Below are positions 3,834 through 23,502 of a stretch of 23,731 bases of DNA, piece by piece. Each line of letters begins with the position of its first letter. The first letter of the stretch is position 1. The notes under the pieces were generated by a model that saw only the letters and a list, made by a program, of their open reading frames with translations, was not told the DNA's origin and searched no databases. A program made the translations under genes and the position numbers. Origin of the DNA: a virus; the IMG/VR virus record IMGVR_UViG_3300036766_000486, positions 1-23,731 of that record; one strand, given 5' to 3'.

Positions 3834-4539
3834 ACAAGCCCAGGCCGTAACGGTCAAGACCGCGGCCGAATTCGAGACCGCGGGAAAGATTGTGATCGCC
3901 ATCCGCCGCGTGCGGAAAACCATCACCGACACCTTCGAGCCGATCCAGAAAAAAGCGCACGCCGCATGGCAGGAGGTTATCGCCCAGCGGAAAAAGCATG
4001 ACGAGCCATTAGAGGCCGCGGAAAAAAACCTCACCCGAATCATGGGCACCTACCAAGCCGAGGTCGAGGCCGAGCGCCAGCGCCTGGCCAGGGAGGAGCA
4101 AAAGCGCCTCGACGAGGAAAAGCGCATCGCCCAGAAAAAGGCGGACGAGGAGAGGCTCGAGCAATTGCGGATCGACAACGAGGCCCGCCTTGCGCACGCC
4201 ATCGCCCTCGAGGCCGAGGGGAAAGCCGCCGAGGCAAACCGCGTCCTGAACGCGCCGCCGCCTCCGCCACCGCCGCCGATCCAAACACCGGCACCGGCGC
4301 CAAGGATGACCATGCCGGAGGCGCCCAAGGCCGCGGGCGTTTCATTCCGGGAGAATTGGAAAGCAAGGGTGGTCGATTTCCAGCTATTGCTGGAGGCGGT
4401 CGCCGCCGGCCGGCAACCCCTGACCATGGTCGAGGCCAACCAGAAAGCGCTGGACGGAATCGCCAAGGCGCTCAAGGGAGAGGCCCGGATCCCCGGCGTC
4501 GAATTTTACAGCGAACAAGTATCAGCGGTGAGGGCCTGA
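3778..4539 (+). CDS. Coiled-coil phage protein next to annealing protein
   Basis: This is a 253-residue protein. Residues 20-90 are helical with a segment typical of a phage family found beside recombination genes (IRRVRKTITDTFEPIQKKAHAAWQEVI). Residues 90-155 form a highly charged coiled coil. Residues 160-167 are eight prolines in a row. Residues 185-245 form a conserved small domain (VSFRENWKARVVDF... IPGVEFY). The role is not established; position suggests an accessory to the annealing and exonuclease pair. ATG 3778 follows ACAGGAG. A longer frame from 3733 lacks a site. Its start overlaps the end of the LexA-like gene. Confidence 0.7.
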   Translation: METGNETQEIARETGALVEQAQAVTVKTAAEFETAGKIVIAIRRVRKTITDTFEPIQKKAHAAWQEVIAQRKKHDEPLEAAEKNLTRIMGTYQAEVEAERQRLAREEQKRLDEEKRIAQKKADEERLEQLRIDNEARLAHAIALEAEGKAAEANRVLNAPPPPPPPPIQTPAPAPRMTMPEAPKAAGVSFRENWKARVVDFQLLLEAVAAGRQPLTMVEANQKALDGIAKALKGEARIPGVEFYSEQVSAVRA

Positions 4540-4542
4540 GCC

Positions 4543-5790
4543 ATGGAAACACAAAACCAGACCGCACCCAACGTCACCGGAACCGCCCTGGCAACCATCA
4601 CCAGGGAGGAGATCGATGTCGCCATATCCACGGCGAAAAAATATCCCAGGAGCCTGACCAAGTTTAGGCAGGACGCGATGGACATGGCCACGGTGGACAT
4701 CGAGACCGCGGGATCGTGCTTCTACAAGCTCCGCCGCAAAAACGACCGCGGGGAGGACGTATCCATCGAGGGCCCAACCATTCGGCTTGCGGAAATCGTG
4801 GCCTCGGCTTGGGGAAATATGAAATTTGGTGCCAGAATAATCGGGCAGGAGGACGGATTCGTTATTGCCCAGGGCGTGGCGCATGACTTGGAAACCAACG
4901 TCTCCAGCACCATGGAGGTTCGGCGACGCATCACCAAAAAGAAAGGGGAAAAATACGGATCGGACATGATCGGCGTGACCAGCAACGCCGCCTGCGCCAT
5001 CGCCGTTCGGAACGCCATATTCAAAACCGTCCCTTTTACCTACGTCAAACAGGTTTATCTCGCGGCCAAGAAAACGGCCGTGGGCGATGCCAAGACGCTG
5101 GTGGAGCGACGCCAACAGATGATTTCCGAATTCAGCAAGATGTCCGTGACCTTGGAACAAATCCTCGAATATACCGGAAAGAGCGGACGCGACGACATCG
5201 GCCTGGCCGAGATCGAGGATTTGATCGGAGCCTTCAACGCCATCAAGGACGGAGACACCTCCGTGGACGAGGTTTTCAAAAAGAAGGCCGCGGCCGAGGG
5301 ACCGAAGCGGGCATCGGAAGCCGCCCCACAGGCGGGAACGCCGCCGCTCACGGTCGATGGCATAGCCGACCGGGCCGCGGTCGAGACGCCGGGACCAGCA
5401 ACGCCGCCGACCCCAGCGGAGCCAGTACCGGAGCCGACGCCACCACCGGCCGCACCGGAACCGCCACCGACACCCGGGCCATCCCTGCCCAATTCCGGAG
5501 CCGCCCAGGCACCGACGCCACCGCCCAGGACCAATGCGCCGACCGGGCCCATCCTGGAATTCGACGACACCATCACCCGCACCAACAGCAAGGACATCGG
5601 AAAAGGCCGGACCAAGTACGGGATTTGCACCGGGAGCGGGAGGTGGATTAACACCATCAACGACGACGCCGGGAGACGAGCTAACCGCTTGAAAGGAACA
5701 AACATACAAGCTAAATTCAAAATCGTGAAAAACGACTACGGGTTTGAATTGGTCGAGATGCAGGAAATCCCACCGGGCGGTTTGAAATGA
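4543..5790 (+). CDS. Probable RecT-like single-strand annealing protein
   Basis: This is a 415-residue protein. Residues 20-250 contain a pattern I associate with phage recombinases placed next to exonucleases: SIEGPTIRLAEIVASAWGN, then GVAHDLETN, RRRITKKKG, and NAACAIAVRNAIFKTVP. Such proteins pair complementary single strands in phage recombination. I infer this from motif and from the neighbouring exonuclease; there is no simple catalytic motif to check. Residues 262-335 are a Pro/Ala-rich linker. A separate C-terminal domain (336-415) begins ILEFDDTITRTNSKD and could be a small beta domain. The gene starts three bases after the preceding stop and overlaps the exonuclease gene by four. Confidence 0.6.
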   Translation: METQNQTAPNVTGTALATITREEIDVAISTAKKYPRSLTKFRQDAMDMATVDIETAGSCFYKLRRKNDRGEDVSIEGPTIRLAEIVASAWGNMKFGARIIGQEDGFVIAQGVAHDLETNVSSTMEVRRRITKKKGEKYGSDMIGVTSNAACAIAVRNAIFKTVPFTYVKQVYLAAKKTAVGDAKTLVERRQQMISEFSKMSVTLEQILEYTGKSGRDDIGLAEIEDLIGAFNAIKDGDTSVDEVFKKKAAAEGPKRASEAAPQAGTPPLTVDGIADRAAVETPGPATPPTPAEPVPEPTPPPAAPEPPPTPGPSLPNSGAAQAPTPPPRTNAPTGPILEFDDTITRTNSKDIGKGRTKYGICTGSGRWINTINDDAGRRANRLKGTNIQAKFKIVKNDYGFELVEMQEIPPGGLK

Positions 5791-7130: not shown

Positions 7131-7531
7131 CCGATCAAGCCCAGCCCGCGGCACCAGCCCGGACCAAGCCCTGCGACGGATGCGGGAACCGCGTGGCCCT
7201 GCAGGAGCGGAGAGCCGATACCGGCCTATGCCACCCATGCAACAAGGCCGCGGTCGATTTTTTCGACGTCCTGCCGGAGCAGGCGGGCATTGCCGTCTTG
7301 AGCAAAAAGATCGGTGGGAATTTCAGCACCGGCGACGAGCAATGGGAAAACCACCCGATGCGATATCGCGTGCGATGCCTGGTCCTTGCATCCTCGGGAT
7401 CGATTCCCAACGCCACCGCGGCCGAGCAGGCGGACGCATCCGTCCTGCGGGAGAGATTCACATTCATGTTCCGAAGCCAATCACAAAATAAACCCGAATC
7501 ACAAACCGATTTCCTGGAGGGAATGCCATGA
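7127..7531 (+). CDS. Zinc-finger-containing hypothetical protein
   Basis: This is a 134-residue protein read from GTG 7127, which overlaps the preceding stop and has CGGAGG upstream. C16-x2-C19 and C35-x2-C38 form a treble-clef-like zinc site. The remaining 95 residues include a strand-rich segment (HPMRYRVRCLVLASS) and a helix (AAEQADASVLRERFTFMF). The function is unknown. It overlaps the next gene by four bases. Confidence 0.6.
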   Translation: MTDQAQPAAPARTKPCDGCGNRVALQERRADTGLCHPCNKAAVDFFDVLPEQAGIAVLSKKIGGNFSTGDEQWENHPMRYRVRCLVLASSGSIPNATAAEQADASVLRERFTFMFRSQSQNKPESQTDFLEGMP

Positions 7532-7983
7532 GCGTAACCAAAGAATTAAAAGAGAGAGCGGCCATGGCCCTGCAGGCATTACGCCGCGGAGACCAAGCCG
7601 AGGCCGAGCGCCTGCTGGAGGCGGACGCCAAGGGATTCATGCCGGGACCGACGCCGGACCTCACCAGCGACTACGAGGTCACAAAATTGCAGGCGGATTT
7701 CCAGACCATGCGCCGCCGTGCCGGAGGCATCGCCGCGGCCATGTGCATCGTAGCACCACAGCGGGACAAGCCCGGCGCTTTCCGGTTCCATTTTTCCGGG
7801 CATGACGCCGTGGTGGCATTGCTCCAAGGGAAAGCCGGGCTCAAGGTTTCACCGACGCCGCCGCCGGCATTGGATGCGGACGGAAATCCGATCCCGCCAG
7901 CCGAGGAGCCGGTCGATGAGCTCGCCGCCTATCGGGCCAAGAGGGCCGAGATTGAAACCCAACAACCACACACAACACCATGA
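7528..7983 (+). CDS. Hypothetical protein, 151 residues
   Basis: The N-terminal 35 residues are helical with a repeat-like start (LKERAAMALQALRRGDQAEAERLLEADAKGF). The middle (60-110) contains AGGIAAAMCIVAPQRDKPGAFRF, which looks folded. The tail after residue 115 is Pro/Glu-rich. I do not recognise it. The start is supported by CTGGAGGGA and the ATGA overlap. Confidence 0.55.
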   Translation: MSVTKELKERAAMALQALRRGDQAEAERLLEADAKGFMPGPTPDLTSDYEVTKLQADFQTMRRRAGGIAAAMCIVAPQRDKPGAFRFHFSGHDAVVALLQGKAGLKVSPTPPPALDADGNPIPPAEEPVDELAAYRAKRAEIETQQPHTTP

Positions 7984-7994
7984 AAGGAACAACC

Positions 7995-8432
7995 ATGCCC
8001 ATCCTGAGACGATACAGCGAAACCCTGCCGGTCGATTTGACGCCGGAACAATTCAAGGAAAAAAGCGAGGCCCTCGCCAACGTATGCGAGGAGATCGCCA
8101 CGGTCGAGGACGAAAAGGCCGCCAGCGCAAAGCAATTCAATGGCAAGATCGGAGAGCTTGAGACCAAGCGGGCCGACCTCGCCCGCATGGTGCGGAGCGG
8201 CCAGGAATACCGACAGGTGGAATGCCAGGAGGAAATCATCCGGGACGACAAGGCCGTCGTCACCGTTCGCCTTGACACCGGAGAGCAAATCCGAAAAAGG
8301 GATGCGCACCCGAACGAGCTCACCAAGGGAAAGGGATTATTCGACAAGCCGGAGGACGAGGACAAGCCCATCGGCCGCGACGCCGATCCCGAGACGACGA
8401 CGGGACCAGTCGGACCCGAGAACGAGCAATGA
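7995..8432 (+). CDS. Coiled-coil hypothetical protein
   Basis: This is a 145-residue protein. Residues 15-70 form a long charged helix suited to a coiled coil (LTPEQFKEKSEALANVCEEIATVEDEK... IGELETKRADLARMV), followed by a strand-rich part (YRQVECQEEIIRDDKAVVTVRLDTGEQIRKR) and an acidic Pro-rich tail. I chose ATG 7995 because AAAGGA at 7983-7988 lies seven bases before it. The in-frame ATG 7980 overlaps the previous stop and would add MKGTT. The family is unknown. Confidence 0.6.
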   Translation: MPILRRYSETLPVDLTPEQFKEKSEALANVCEEIATVEDEKAASAKQFNGKIGELETKRADLARMVRSGQEYRQVECQEEIIRDDKAVVTVRLDTGEQIRKRDAHPNELTKGKGLFDKPEDEDKPIGRDADPETTTGPVGPENEQ

Positions 8433-11977: not shown

Positions 11978-12159
11978 ACATTTTCGATTTCGCCGCCGCC
12001 GGCGCCTTCATCGGAACCGTGATCAACCTTGTGAAATTTATTTACACCAGGGACCAAACCCACGGCGCCGGCGTTTGTATCGGATTTGTAATCGTCCTTT
12101 TTTTGGTCCGGCTGGCTGGTGCCATGGAGAAAATGCGAAGTGCGAACCGCAAAGATTGA
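11968..12159 (+). CDS. Two-span membrane protein, holin candidate
   Basis: This is a 63-residue protein with two predicted membrane spans, about residues 7-24 (FAAAGAFIGTVINLVKFI) and 35-51 (AGVCIGFVIVLFLVRLA), joined by the short polar loop YTRDQTHG. It ends in a basic tail. The size and topology fit class II holins, and it lies about 500 bases before the endolysin gene. No family motif is recognised. GAGGAGGGGG is a strong ribosome site. The 3' end overlaps the HU-like gene by 20 bases in another frame. Confidence 0.5.
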   Translation: MRLNIFDFAAAGAFIGTVINLVKFIYTRDQTHGAGVCIGFVIVLFLVRLAGAMEKMRSANRKD

Positions 12160-12523
12160 TCTGATTCGGGAGACGGCCGCGGCCAGCGGGAGAACACAGA
12201 CGGAATGCCGGCGCGGAATCGAGGATTTTTTAACCGCAATTTTCCAATGCGCGAACGACAACACCCCGGTCGAGATCCGTGGCTTCGGAACCTTTTACAC
12301 CAAGGAACGGAAACCGCGGCCGGCACGCAACCCGAGAACGGGAGAGATCGTACCTTTGCCCAGGCGCCGGGTTTTCCTATTCCGATATTCACCGGAATTA
12401 AAAGAGACCATCGGCCTGTGCCTGGGCCTCCCATACGCCAGCCCCGCCCGCTTCGAGAGCGCCCAGGAGCGCAGGAACATCGCATCACACGCCCGAGCAT
12501 TCATCAAGGAGAAAACAAAATGA
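12140..12523 (+). CDS. HU/IHF-family DNA-binding protein with C-terminal extension
   Basis: This is a 127-residue protein whose first 90 residues match the HU/IHF fold. VEIRGFGTFYTKERKPRPARNPRTGE carries the DNA-intercalating RNP arm, and the fold ends in VFLFRYSPELKETI. Usual length is about 90-100 residues, so residues 91-127 are an added basic tail. It would bend DNA, possibly in packaging or recombination. I chose GTG 12140 because GGAGA at 12126-12130 is correctly spaced. An upstream GTG at 12119 lacks a site. It lies unexpectedly inside the lysis gene cluster. Confidence 0.8.
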   Translation: MRTAKIDLIRETAAASGRTQTECRRGIEDFLTAIFQCANDNTPVEIRGFGTFYTKERKPRPARNPRTGEIVPLPRRRVFLFRYSPELKETIGLCLGLPYASPARFESAQERRNIASHARAFIKEKTK

Positions 12524-13937: not shown

Positions 13938-14030
13938 TTGCCACCCAATCCGCAAATTGTGATATTGCCGGGAACGAGGTAGCCACCAAGGCCACCCCGA
14001 ACCGCTGGTGACCAGCGACGCCGCCTCCCG

Positions 14031-14081
14031 GGCTCGGGTGGAGCGGCCGACCGTCGCCGCGGGAGAACCACATCCCGAGCC
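14031..14081 (+). promoter_or_regulatory. Leader inverted repeat before methyltransferase gene
   Basis: GGCTCGGG (14031-14038) and CCCGAGCC (14074-14081) are perfect 8-base complements separated by 35 bases. The hairpin would end immediately before ATG 14082 and 13 bases before the likely start ATG 14095. No T-run follows, so it is not an intrinsic terminator. It could control translation of the methyltransferase. Confidence 0.45.
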
Positions 14082-18804: not shown

Positions 18805-19704
18805 GTGCCGATTTCCCAGGAATTGCGCCTCCGCATTAAGGCCGCACGCCAGCGGGGAAAGATTCCAAAGCGCCTGCGCCGGCCGCCGAAAATGATTAGG
18901 CCCGCGGCCATCGAGCGCCAATACCGACGGGCCATTATTGAAATCATAAACCGGATCGAAAAGGCATGGCGGGAAATATTCCTGCCCCATTTGCCGGCGC
19001 TGGTGGAGGAGGCCGCGGCCGGCCGCCCGAGCGCCGACAGCATACGGAAAGATCAATGGCCCGCCGAGGCCGCCCGATTAATCGCGGCCATGAAATTAAA
19101 CCTGGGCCGCGGCCGGATCCCGGTCGAGGACATCACCCAGGAATTCGGAAACAACCTCGGCAAATGGAACGACAAGGAATGGCGAAAGGTTCTGCAGGCC
19201 ACCCTGGGCGTCGACCTTTTCCAAGCGGAGCCATGGCTGAGGCCGGAATTAAATGCATGGGCCCAGGTGAATGCGAATTTAATCACCAGCCTGGAGGAGA
19301 CCGGCATCAGGGATGTCGAGCGCTGGACATTGCAAGGCCTGCGCACCGGCCAACGCCATGAGCAAATCACCGAGAAAATATTGGAGCGCTTCGAAGTTTC
19401 CCGCGGCCGGGCCAAATTAATCGCCAGGGACCAGACCGCGAAATTAAACGGAGACCTCACCGAGCGCCGCCAAGTCGCCGCCGGCGTCACCGGATACATA
19501 TGGCGCACCAGCCTCGACGAGCGGGTGAGAGGAAATCCCGCCGGCAAATATCCCAACGCCCGCCCGAGCCATTGGATCAAAGAAGGGAAATCGTTTAAGT
19601 GGAACAGCCCGCCGGCCGACACCGGACACCCGGGCCAGGATTATCAATGCCGATGCACAGCGGAACCGGACATGGCCGGCCTTTTGGCCGCGGCCGAGGA
19701 GTAA
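18805..19704 (+). CDS. Mu F-like head morphogenesis protein
   Basis: This is a 299-residue protein. The C-terminal domain has the hallmarks of the Mu gpF/SPP1 gp7 family: ERFEVSRGRAKLIARDQTAKLNG, then TSLDERVRGNP and the terminal GHPGQDYQCRC (274-284). These minor head proteins associate with the portal and help prohead assembly. The N-terminal 50 residues are very basic. The start is GTG 18805, three bases after the portal stop; the nearest GGAG is about 14 bases upstream, so initiation probably relies on coupling. Confidence 0.87.
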   Translation: MPISQELRLRIKAARQRGKIPKRLRRPPKMIRPAAIERQYRRAIIEIINRIEKAWREIFLPHLPALVEEAAAGRPSADSIRKDQWPAEAARLIAAMKLNLGRGRIPVEDITQEFGNNLGKWNDKEWRKVLQATLGVDLFQAEPWLRPELNAWAQVNANLITSLEETGIRDVERWTLQGLRTGQRHEQITEKILERFEVSRGRAKLIARDQTAKLNGDLTERRQVAAGVTGYIWRTSLDERVRGNPAGKYPNARPSHWIKEGKSFKWNSPPADTGHPGQDYQCRCTAEPDMAGLLAAAEE

Positions 19705-19708
19705 ACGC

Positions 19709-19909
19709 ATGAACCTAAAAGAGACGACCGAGGCCCTGGCCCAGGTGGTGGCGCCGGAATTGGCCGCGGGATTCACCGGCCGTATTTCATTTGACATCGA
19801 GATGCGCCAGGGCGGGATCGCCAAGATTTCCGTGCGCAAAGAGCATGATATCAGGGCCCGCACCGCGGGAGCGCCACCGGTTCCGGTTCCAAGTTATCGG
19901 GAGGATTGA
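19709..19909 (+). CDS. Small hypothetical protein
   Basis: This is a 66-residue protein with a helix (LKETTEALAQVVAPELA) followed by beta strands (GRISFDIEMRQGGIAKISVRKEHDI). The second part resembles small phage proteins of the form G.I.F.....GGI..I.V...H, with no known role. GAGGAG at 19697-19702, inside the end of the preceding gene, supports ATG 19709. It is the last gene before the internal promoter and terminator. Confidence 0.6.
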   Translation: MNLKETTEALAQVVAPELAAGFTGRISFDIEMRQGGIAKISVRKEHDIRARTAGAPPVPVPSYRED

Positions 19910-19929
19910 CAGCGCCAGGAAAATGGCCC

Positions 19930-19958
19930 TTGCCAAATTCCAAGATACCGAGTACAAT
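19930..19958 (+). promoter_or_regulatory. Sigma70-type promoter within the head gene cluster
   Basis: TTGCCA (19930-19935), a 17-base spacer and TACAAT (19953-19958) form a strong candidate promoter in the 137-base gap before the prohead protease gene. The predicted start is near 19965. It differs from promoters A and B outside the hexamers, so it is probably not under the same regulator. Confidence 0.72.
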
Positions 19959-19964
19959 AGATCG

Positions 19965-20046
19965 CAACGAGTAGCCGAATCACCTGGACGGAAAAAACCA
20001 GAAGTGAGGAAAGCCCCGAGCCCACAAGGCATCGGGGATTTTTTTT
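19965..20046 (+). ncRNA. Candidate small RNA or attenuated leader, about 80 bases
   Basis: A transcript from the promoter at 19930 would run about 80 bases before the intrinsic terminator at 20011-20046. It holds no reading frame I can support. A short stem (CTGG at 19984-19987 with CCAG at 19998-20001) precedes the terminator hairpin. It could be a free small RNA or a leader that needs antitermination to continue into the capsid genes. Confidence 0.45.
20011..20046 (+). terminator. Intrinsic terminator abutting a start codon
   Basis: CCCCGA (20014-20019) pairs with TCGGGG (20032-20037). Inside it, GCC (20020-20022) pairs with GGC (20028-20030), leaving one bulged A. Eight T residues follow (20039-20046). 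The ATG of the prohead protease gene starts at the next base. This is a textbook intrinsic terminator in an unusual place. Confidence 0.8.
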
Positions 20047-21201
20047 ATGGCAAAAAGAGAAATACGAATCGACCGCGGAGAGCTTCGGCTTAATGCGGTC
20101 AAGACACCGGAAGGTTACCTCACGGCAACAGCCAAGGTAGCGCGGACCGGAGTATTTCCATATCGAAACGCCGACGGATCCGTGCGCTATGAATTGCGCC
20201 ACCCGGATGACGTTTTCAAAAAGCCGGCCATGGATTCCATGAAACAGATACCGATCACGCTCGAGCACCCGCGGCAAATGTTGACCGCGGCCAACGCCAA
20301 GGAGCTATCGGTCGGACACGTCGGCGACAGGGTGGAGGCGGACGCCCCATTCGTAATAGCGGATTTAATCATCACCGACGCCGAGGCCATCCGGGCAATC
20401 GAGGCCGGTAAGCAGGAATTATCCTGCGGATATTTTCTCGACCTGGTCGAGGATTCCGGAATTTACGAGGGCCATGCTTACACCCATCGCCAGACCAATA
20501 TCCGAGAGAACCACCTGGCGATCACGGACATGGCCCGCCTCGGGCCCGAGCTTCGCATCGATTCGGATGTACCTTATTCCGTGCGCACCGATGCCCGGAA
20601 AGATTCCAACCCCAACGAGGAGAGAACAATGATCAAGGTCACCATCAACGGAATTTCATACGATTGCGCTCCCGAGGTCGCCAACGAGCTCGCCCGCGTG
20701 AACGCCGCCATGACCGCCGCCACCGAAACCGCCAAGACGGAAAAGGCCGCGATCCAGGCAAAGCTGGACACCGCCACCGGCGAACGGGACGGATTGAAAA
20801 CCAAGTATGACGCCCTCGAGAAGGATGGACCGGCGAAAATCATCGCCGCTTCCAAGGCACGCGCAACCCTGGTCGCCGCCGCCACCAAGGCGCTGGACGC
20901 CGAGGCCGTGAAAAATCTGGACGGCATGACCGACAGCGAAATCAAAAAGGCGGTCGTGTTGGCCAAGGCGCCGAAGGGAACCAGCCTCGACGGAAAATCC
21001 GATGAGTACATCCAGGCCCGCTTCGAGCTTGCCACCGAGAACGCGGACGCGGAAAACGCGGACGACAAGCTGGCCGCCGGCCGACGCAATAGCGCACCCC
21101 GTAATGACGGGAGCCCGGAAAAGGGTGGCCAGGACGACGCCCGCACCCGCATGAACGCCCGCCTGAAAAACGGAAACAAGGATCCGGAAAAGGCCAAATA
21201 G
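20047..21201 (+). CDS. DUF2213 prohead protease/scaffold fusion
   Basis: This is a 384-residue protein. Residues 10-180 match DUF2213: TPEGYLTATAKVARTGVFPYRNADGS, then RHPDDVFKKPAMDSMKQIPITLEHP, GHVGDRVE and KQELSCGYFLDL. This domain is proposed to be the prohead maturation protease. Residues 195-384 are an Ala/Lys/Asp/Glu-rich helical region typical of scaffolding proteins. The start has no ordinary ribosome site, because the terminator T-run directly precedes ATG. GAGGA at 20006-20010 would come within 12 unpaired bases if the hairpin folds. A strong internal site lies before Met195. It is the first gene after the internal promoter. Confidence 0.8.
   Translation: MAKREIRIDRGELRLNAVKTPEGYLTATAKVARTGVFPYRNADGSVRYELRHPDDVFKKPAMDSMKQIPITLEHPRQMLTAANAKELSVGHVGDRVEADAPFVIADLIITDAEAIRAIEAGKQELSCGYFLDLVEDSGIYEGHAYTHRQTNIRENHLAITDMARLGPELRIDSDVPYSVRTDARKDSNPNEERTMIKVTINGISYDCAPEVANELARVNAAMTAATETAKTEKAAIQAKLDTATGERDGLKTKYDALEKDGPAKIIAASKARATLVAAATKALDAEAVKNLDGMTDSEIKKAVVLAKAPKGTSLDGKSDEYIQARFELATENADAENADDKLAAGRRNSAPRNDGSPEKGGQDDARTRMNARLKNGNKDPEKAK
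20617..20631 (+). promoter_or_regulatory. Internal ribosome site and in-frame start for scaffold
   Basis: GAGGAGAG (20617-20624) lies four bases before an in-frame ATG (20629). Initiation here would give a 190-residue protein, 20629-21201, covering only the coiled, charged C-terminal part of the DUF2213 gene. This matches the lambda C/Nu3 arrangement, where a scaffold is made from within the protease gene. Confidence 0.65.
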
Positions 21202-21271: not shown

Positions 21272-22006
21272 ATGAGCCAGACCGCATATTCTCTCACCAC
21301 CGCGGTGGCAGTCGCCGGCATGAAAGCCGACAGCGGTGCGGACTACGTGGAAAGCCATGCGGCGCAGGCGCAGATCAATTTCGGCCTGGGCCTAGTGAAA
21401 GCGCAAGGCGGAGACGGCCAAGTTCGGCCCCCCCTCTTAAATCAATTAATGCTGGTGCTGGATGCCAATCTTGTCACCGGCAACACCTTCGCCTTCACCT
21501 TGAACGGCGAGGCCGTTTCCGTTTTGTTCGCCACCTCTCACCTGGCCACCATGAACGCGGTCGCCGCGGCCGTGGAAGCCTTGACCGGCGCAAGTTATGA
21601 CGCCACCGTCGGAGGCGCGGGAAACCGCACCCTCACCGTGGTCGCCTCCAATGTGGCCGTGGATGCTGCGAGCATTTCGATCACCGGAGGCGCGAGCCAG
21701 GCCGGAGTCGTGGAAACCCGATCCACCATTGACACGATCGTTCGTGGCATCGCCCTGCATGAGCAGCGCGAAAGCCTGATCGGCTATCCGCAATTTTCCA
21801 CCGTCAACGTCCTGCGCCGCGGCAAGGCATGGGTGGTGGTATGCGATACCGTTGCCGACGGCGACGACGTTTACATCAGTTACGCCGACGCCAACGCCGG
21901 GCAATTCCGAAACGACAACGCCAGCGGCCTGCTGGTTTCGGGCGCCAAATTCCGCAGCGCCGCCACCACCGGCCAGATCGCGATCGTGGAAATCAACGAG
22001 CCGTGA
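21272..22006 (+). CDS. Capsid cement-type protein with inserted domain
   Basis: This is a 244-residue protein. Residues 1-55 (MSQTAYSLTTAVAVAGMKAD... FGLGLVK) and 152-244 (GIALHEQRESLIGY... IAIVEINEP) align with the protein at 22047. They resemble DUF2190/structural cement proteins that decorate or stabilise the capsid. Residues about 58-150 are an insertion absent from the paralog, with beta-rich repeats (VTGNTFAFTLNGEAVSVLFATSH... SISITGGASQAGVVETRST) like small domains seen in other phage structural proteins. AAGGA at 21260-21264 supports ATG 21272. The preceding 70-base gap shows no clear signal. Confidence 0.75.
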   Translation: MSQTAYSLTTAVAVAGMKADSGADYVESHAAQAQINFGLGLVKAQGGDGQVRPPLLNQLMLVLDANLVTGNTFAFTLNGEAVSVLFATSHLATMNAVAAAVEALTGASYDATVGGAGNRTLTVVASNVAVDAASISITGGASQAGVVETRSTIDTIVRGIALHEQRESLIGYPQFSTVNVLRRGKAWVVVCDTVADGDDVYISYADANAGQFRNDNASGLLVSGAKFRSAATTGQIAIVEINEP

Positions 22007-22046
22007 CGGAAACGGAAAAACAAACGCGAAAAAACAGGAGAAACCC

Positions 22047-22499
22047 ATGAGCCAGACCGCATATTCCCTTACCACCGCCGCCGCCATGGCCGGCATGAAG
22101 GCCGACGCCCAATTCGACTACGTCGAAAGCCACCCGGCACAGGCCGCGGTCGGTTTCGGTCTCGGCGTCGTTCGACACGCCGCCGGCGACGACCGCGTGC
22201 GATTGCCCGCAGGCGCCGACGCATCCGCCGCTTTCATGGGCATTGCCCTGCATGAACAAAAGGAATCCCTGATCGGATATCTGGCCAACGATTCCGTTAA
22301 CGTTTTGCGCCGAGGAAAGGCCTGGGTTTTGGTGAACGACACCGTCGCCGATGGAGAACCCGCCTTCGTGGTGAACGCGGTCGGCGATTTCGGAAAGTTC
22401 CGGAATGACAACACCAACGCCATCGTGGTGCCGACCGGAGTCTTCCGATCCGCCGCGGTTAGCGGAGGCATCGCCATCGTCGAAATCAACATTCCGTAA
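22047..22499 (+). CDS. Capsid cement-type protein, short paralog
   Basis: This is a 150-residue protein, the compact version of the preceding gene product. Shared blocks are MSQTAYSLTTA.A.AGMKAD, DYVESH.AQA, GIALHEQ.ESLIGY, VNVLRRGKAWV, DTVADG, FRNDN and IAIVEIN. The first 20 bases of the two genes are identical, indicating a tandem duplication. The likely role is a head decoration or stabilising protein (DUF2190-like). ACAGGAGAAA precedes the start. Its place just before the major capsid gene fits. Confidence 0.78.
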   Translation: MSQTAYSLTTAAAMAGMKADAQFDYVESHPAQAAVGFGLGVVRHAAGDDRVRLPAGADASAAFMGIALHEQKESLIGYLANDSVNVLRRGKAWVLVNDTVADGEPAFVVNAVGDFGKFRNDNTNAIVVPTGVFRSAAVSGGIAIVEINIP

Positions 22500-22563
22500 T
22501 CCAAAGCCGGAGACGCAAGGAAAAAACTGAACAACGCCCGAATGGGCACAAGGAGAACAAGCC

Positions 22564-23502
22564 ATGAAGGAACGCATTATCACCCAGAACCTCGACGCCA
22601 ACGAGACCGCCTTCTTCGAGCGGGAATTGGAACACATCAAGGCGCGGAGCTATGATGTGATTTATCCGGAATTCATGGCATACGAATTGATCCCCATCGA
22701 AACCGATGCGGGACCCGGAGCCGAGACCATCACCTACCGCCAGTACGATCACGTCGGCATGGCGAAAATCATCGCCAGCTACGCGGACGACCTGCCCCGG
22801 TCGGACATCAAGGGCCTGGAATTCACCGCCCGCGTCAAGGGAATCGGTGGCGCCTATGGATATTCCATTCAGGAAATCCGCCGGGCGAACATGACCGGCC
22901 TCCCGCTGGAACAACGCAAGGCCAACGCCTCGCGGCATTCCAACGATCAGCTGACCAATCAGATCGCCTGGTTCGGGAACAGCGCCCACGGCATCGAGGG
23001 CCTGCTTTACAACACCAACGTCACCAAGACCGCGGCCGTGAACGGCGCCTGGTTGACGGCCACCCCCGATGACATCATCGAGGACGTGAACACCGCCATC
23101 GGCGCCATGCTTTCCACCACCAAGGGCGTGGAACGGCCGGACACGGTGGCCATCGCCACAAAGCAACACGCGCACATCGCCAGCACCCCGCGGTCGGCGA
23201 CGAGCGACACCACCATCCTGGAATTCCTGCGCCGGGTTTGGCCCGGGATCACGTTTTACAGCGTGCCGGAATTCGAAGCGCTGGCCATCATCCCCAGCAC
23301 CGGCGGAGCGGGACCCACCGACATCATGCTGATCTTCCGCCGGAGCGCCGACAAGCTGGGCCTGCAAATTCCGCAGACCTACGAGCAATTCCCCGCCCAG
23401 GAACGCAACCTGGAATTCGTGGTGCCGACCCATTCGCGCACCGCGGGCGTGATCGTTTATTATCCCCTTTCCGTCACGGTCGTGGACGGATTGGAAGTCT
23501 AA
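22564..23502 (+). CDS. Major capsid protein (DUF2184 type)
   Basis: This is a 312-residue protein matching the DUF2184 encapsulin-like major capsid family. It has FFERELEHIKARSYDVIYPEF, then GAETITYRQYDHVGMAKII, DLPRSDIKGLEF, GYSIQEIRRANMTGLPLEQRKA, WFGNSAHGIEGLLYN and ending in YEQFPAQERNLEFVVPTHSRTAGVIVYYPLSV. It forms the HK97-fold shell. Length is usual for the family. AAGGAGAA precedes ATG 22564. It follows a 64-base gap with only a small GCCC-GAAT-GGGC hairpin. Confidence 0.9.
   Translation: MKERIITQNLDANETAFFERELEHIKARSYDVIYPEFMAYELIPIETDAGPGAETITYRQYDHVGMAKIIASYADDLPRSDIKGLEFTARVKGIGGAYGYSIQEIRRANMTGLPLEQRKANASRHSNDQLTNQIAWFGNSAHGIEGLLYNTNVTKTAAVNGAWLTATPDDIIEDVNTAIGAMLSTTKGVERPDTVAIATKQHAHIASTPRSATSDTTILEFLRRVWPGITFYSVPEFEALAIIPSTGGAGPTDIMLIFRRSADKLGLQIPQTYEQFPAQERNLEFVVPTHSRTAGVIVYYPLSVTVVDGLEV

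Follow-up and report, generated by a model that had tools for sequence, protein, structure and literature searches.

The DNA analysed here, a viral fragment from IMG/VR of 23,731 bases (hereafter the window), has all its identified genes on the plus strand. Its head cluster runs from the small and large terminase subunits through the portal (PF06381), a Mu F-like head protein and an ORF of 66 amino acids (19709..19909, with homologues in the related contigs L006, L008, L020 and L042) to the head maturation protease (DUF2213, phrog_530; 20047..21201, with its ATG at 20047), a structural cement protein (21272..22006; Phage_cement PF22758, 2e-17) and the major capsid protein (22564..23502; PF09950, 7.7e-58). 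Self-matches point to a diverged second cement-like copy at 22033-22500, in tandem to the first. The 66-aa ORF and the protease are separated by 137 bases, which contain a promoter, a hairpin-bearing leader and a terminator, all on the plus strand and together occupying 117 bp (19930-20046). A promoter-terminator unit before the protease, cement and capsid genes had been proposed in a preliminary description of this DNA, and it is indeed present and conserved in relatives.

The promoter is of sigma70 type (TTGCCA-17-TACAAT, 19930..19958) and matches the consensus at 10/12 positions, with the -35 element at 19930-19935, a spacer of 17 nt and the -10 element at 19953-19958. It scores 13.6 bits as compared to 10.2 for the 95th percentile of shuffled sequences and is the only 10/12 match in the 19.7 kb scanned; consensus matches overall were not enriched (8 versus 6.2 expected). 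A search for promoters of at least 13 bits followed within 130 nt by a strong T-tailed hairpin returned this one unit only on both strands of the whole window and none in 60 dinucleotide shuffles. Transcription would start near 19965, as judged from the position of the -10 element, giving a predicted RNA of ~80 nt (about 82 nt, 19965..20046) that folds better than 198 of 200 shuffled sequences. Between terminator and capsid gene the consensus scan found no 10/12 promoter, the nearest 9/12 match being at 22627 inside the capsid gene. Repetition of the promoter elsewhere in the window was considered and rejected, the count of TTGCCAAATTC being at chance level. A second promoter-like site (TTGCCA-17-GATATT, 13938-13990) lies upstream of the methyltransferase-terminase module and is followed by AACGAGGTAGCC, which is close to the sequence at the RNA start at 19965 (AACGAGTAGCC). 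Upstream of the methyltransferase gene there is also a GC-rich hairpin block (CCAGCGACGCCGCC...GGAGCGGCC, 14011-14050), preserved in L006/L007 despite differing flanks.

The intrinsic terminator (20014..20046) begins ~49 nt downstream of the predicted start, with a distance of 55 nt from the -10 element to its stem. It consists of a stem-loop at 20014-20037 (CCCCGAGCC-CACAA-GGC-A-UCGGGG, -15 kcal/mol) and an A-T8 tail (20038-20046), whose T8 tract directly abuts the protease ATG. It had earlier been called a textbook terminator, which is slightly generous, since a single A between stem and T-run gives it a borderline d'Aubenton-Carafa-type score of about -4, as compared to +2.9 in L002, +23.8 in L006 and +34.4 in L017. 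Overlooked at that time was the leader hairpin at 19980..20007 (UCACCUGG-loop-CCAG-AA-GUGA), supported by its conservation in L002 and L006 and by a covariance model. Leader-peptide attenuation was rejected because the GTG frame at 20004 shows no protein-level conservation, its residues changing even in the near-twin L002 and its end coming early in L006. The ~80-nt RNA thus holds no conserved reading frame and does not qualify as a moron, which would encode a protein. Inspection of the leader by eye found no strong mutually exclusive pairing that could form an alternative antiterminator fold, and the RNA has no match in Rfam at or above the gathering score.

How well is this arrangement preserved? 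The full unit is kept in the near-twin L002, in L006/L007 (portal 76% identical) and in L008 (portal 54%); loss of both elements from relatives, which the preliminary description had named as counting against its proposal, is not what these contigs show. L002 is ~99% identical across the head genes, apart from a patch corresponding to 19404-20027 that has diverged by roughly 9%, suggesting recombination. Within the unit, L002 has eight differences; five of them affect the middle of the spacer, the other three the terminator loop, and none lies in the -35 and -10 elements, leader, hairpin, terminator stem or tail. The leader hairpin is among the best-conserved parts, without any change in L002 and with two substitutions and one gap column in 28 nt in L006. 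In L006/L007 hairpin and terminator stem-loop together differ at 3/52 sites, and the terminator stem-loop at 1/24, as compared to ~35% of sites in the 66-aa ORF and the protease start. L008 has TTGACA-17-TAACCT, the hairpin and the terminator at the same place, the terminator stem being changed in sequence with pairing retained, and a covariance model built without L008 finds its copy (also L132) in the syntenic slot at 15 bits (E 0.66 over 630 kb). Weak matches of the leader model elsewhere, apart from this copy, are at chance level, and the exact leader motif pattern occurs only in the L002, L006 and L007 contigs. A covariation analysis had been suggested earlier. A formal count of pairs in three close sequences found no covariation, while comparison by eye of L006 and the window with L008 shows one leader hairpin pair in which A-U has replaced G-C, and in the terminator both bases are exchanged in two pairs. 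Support for the structure therefore comes from the pattern of change and not from covariation statistics. Promoter, leader hairpin and terminator are thus conserved as a unit in one lineage, and because related phages keep the same arrangement the unit is, as judged from these alignments, a real control element. In L002 an extra ORF of ~90 aa (4360-4640), absent from the window, lies between the F-like gene and the 66-aa ORF as an insertion adjoining the unit, and in L008 the F-like head protein gene seems to be split by an intein-like in-frame insert (7416-8220).

The promoter itself shows an uneven pattern of change. Its hexamers are identical in L002, and the -35 element also in L006, and within the spacer (19936..19952) the outer blocks AATTC (19936-19940) and CGAG (19949-19952) are conserved around a variable middle, as the five differences to L002 and the five to L006 (5/17 bases) all fall into the middle eight positions. 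Conserved ends around a variable middle are expected of a loading site embedded in a spacer, and the spacer is possibly such a site for a regulator. The two blocks match no known element, and the AlpA element GGGACG is absent from the spacer (AATTCCAAGATACCGAG). The initial transcribed region is moderately conserved, with 7/21 changes to L006; no convincing -10-like sigma-pause motif was found in the first transcribed bases. AACGAG near +2 resembles the AACGAT of lambda; it is short, lacks the final T and is partly kept in L006.

At its other end the unit overlaps the putative translation signals of the protease. The best Shine-Dalgarno match of the protease, CGGGGA (20033..20038), lies in the 3' arm of the terminator stem, and the stem bases covering it are predicted to be fully paired in the read-through RNA of the window. 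Protease translation would therefore be low, while cement and capsid genes have their own sites, which would suit the proportions in which these proteins are required. The best protease Shine-Dalgarno lies inside the terminator 3' arm in four genomes of two lineages (window, L002, L006 and L017). The arrangement is not universal, since in L013, L109 and L042 the start codons lie some 12-22 nt past the terminator.

A survey of 92 non-redundant upstream regions, whose rows are not independent as some come from one clade, found promoter plus terminator in seven and no full unit in the other 85. In a quick protease tree these seven fall into three groups: the window with L011 (=L006) and L132 (=L008) (support 100), L107 (=L017) with L108 (=L013) and L109 (support 100), and L146 (=L042). 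In the second group a different leader is conserved (UGGYAC..., as read by eye), without evident sequence shared with the window group, and the spacers of this group are not conserved; units of the second and third group are unrelated in sequence to that of the window and have the same layout in the same slot before the protease. Promoters scoring above all shuffles occur in 11/92 regions before the protease versus 3/230 before other head genes (portal 1/41, F 0/67, cement 1/44, capsid 1/78). Terminators are found in 14/68 versus 10/162 (portal 3/32, F 2/46, cement 0/24, capsid 5/60). The slot before the protease is thus a favoured place for a promoter, to which some lineages add a terminated leader. 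The full unit was absent from the 14 cultured-phage regions examined, and the one protease relative found among prophages is without it. Chance or an inert leftover, which would fit the lack of overall enrichment in simple consensus scans, is hardly credible given the conservation pattern and the recurrence. A further possibility, in our view rather unlikely, is a distinct class of capsid leader that would have arisen independently, or been retained, in several head-cluster lineages. It would combine a promoter, a conserved RNA and a terminator joined to the ribosome-binding site of the protease, so that one hairpin would both stop transcription and dose protease versus capsid protein.

The same survey bears on a plainer explanation, in which the terminator would limit read-through from the packaging genes, leakage from the local promoter would supply the capsid mRNA and the leader would have no special role. 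Its parts also occur singly in this slot: five further regions have a terminator without a clear promoter, several relatives (L020, L021, L037 and L043) are terminator-only, and in L062, L089, L120 and L175 a promoter immediately precedes the start codon and there is no terminator. L017 has an additional terminator upstream of its promoter, and the borderline score in the window would likewise suit a leaky boundary. However, with the promoter upstream of the terminator the restarted transcript would be cut off first, and the strongly conserved leader hairpin speaks against a mere boundary, which we consider rather unlikely.

The main rival is a free small RNA, a gene of ~80 nt that would act in trans on host or phage mRNAs, the capsid genes being transcribed from upstream by terminator-resistant polymerase. 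The locus has several features of a terminated small RNA gene, namely its own promoter, a conserved structured RNA with an A-rich loop and no conserved ORF, and a terminator with a U8 tail, and its leader hairpin is conserved above the flanking coding DNA. Against it speak the position, which is fixed immediately upstream of the protease in three lineages although their RNA sequences are unrelated, and the lack of an Rfam match. We regard this alternative, though serious, as unlikely.

How then would the capsid genes be transcribed? We tentatively favour, with somewhat less than even confidence, a promoter for the capsid cluster followed by a terminated leader, past which transcription would require read-through or antitermination, as in lambda pR'-tR' or AlpA/alpB. 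The dedicated sigma70 promoter of the protease-cement-capsid cluster would initiate an RNA that by default stops after ~80 nt at the terminator abutting the protease start codon, the product being a short RNA. Since the promoter precedes the terminator and no other strong promoter lies before the capsid gene, polymerases would have to pass the terminator for capsid mRNA to be made and for the capsid genes to be fully expressed, which argues for passage either from the local promoter or from the upstream operon. The passing polymerases could be ones that a phage antiterminator of Q/AlpA type had altered at this promoter, or could arrive from the upstream late operon, and the conserved leader hairpin may be part of the switch or a stabiliser of the short RNA. 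In the read-through mRNA the terminator hairpin would cover the protease Shine-Dalgarno, so that protease would be made sparingly, and cement and capsid proteins freely from their own sites. Confidence in this antiterminated leader stays tentative because its anatomy and spacer fit, yet no antiterminator is recognised in the fragment: the window proteins scanned, from a record of 23.7 kb, gave no match to Q/AlpA-like families. The borderline terminator score counts against it as well, as simple leakage could suffice. An ORF at 12119-12523, outside the protein scan, has a stretch that looks HU/IHF-like by eye (NPRTGEIVPLP).

From genes that lie side by side, phages have to produce capsid protein in much larger amounts than protease or packaging proteins. 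If the antiterminated leader is correct, a conserved terminated leader at the border of packaging and capsid genes would be a simple way to set this ratio, and conditional termination, known from the start of late operons, would be used inside the head cluster too. In addition, the unit points to a candidate small RNA that Rfam does not contain.

A literature search retrieved analogues, none of them describing this promoter-leader-terminator element. Like the put RNA of HK022, the predicted RNA forms two stem-loops within ~80 nt of the promoter at which this phage transcript would start (PMC9378689), and the leader hairpin might itself make polymerase resistant to terminators in cis. Such a put-type action is very improbable, as the second stem-loop here is a terminator with U8 and the leader model R1 gives only chance-level matches in HK022. 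At pR'-tR' of lambda and phage 21, the loading of Q involves both an element located between -35 and -10 and a -10-like pause (PMC6606751). The order of elements is the same, a strong sigma70 promoter, a short RNA, an intrinsic terminator and then late genes, as is characteristic of Q-dependent late promoters. The lambda 6S RNA has ~194 nt, whereas the predicted RNA of the window has ~80 nt and a conserved leader hairpin; moreover, the unit lies inside the head cluster and not before lysis genes as in lambda, and the window shows neither a Q gene nor a clear -10-like pause motif. The terminator ~49 nt after the predicted start and the conserved spacer blocks would nevertheless be compatible with a lambda-type mechanism. 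At alpB of Pseudomonas aeruginosa, on which AlpA acts, 54 nt separate the start site from the beginning of the terminator (PMC7969949). The window resembles this system in that its terminator begins ~50 nt downstream of the predicted start and immediately precedes the first gene, and in the conserved blocks of the promoter spacer, and differs in that AATTC...CGAG does not resemble GGGACG, that capsid and not lysis genes follow downstream and that no AlpA-like gene was identified. Finally, IsrK of prophage Gifsy-1, which differs from the window unit in sequence and genes, is alike in that a single promoter yields either a short RNA ending at a terminator or, when polymerase reads through, an mRNA that by itself is translationally inactive. 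As the IsrK locus works both as sRNA and as read-through mRNA (PMC4825925), the readings weighed here need not exclude each other.
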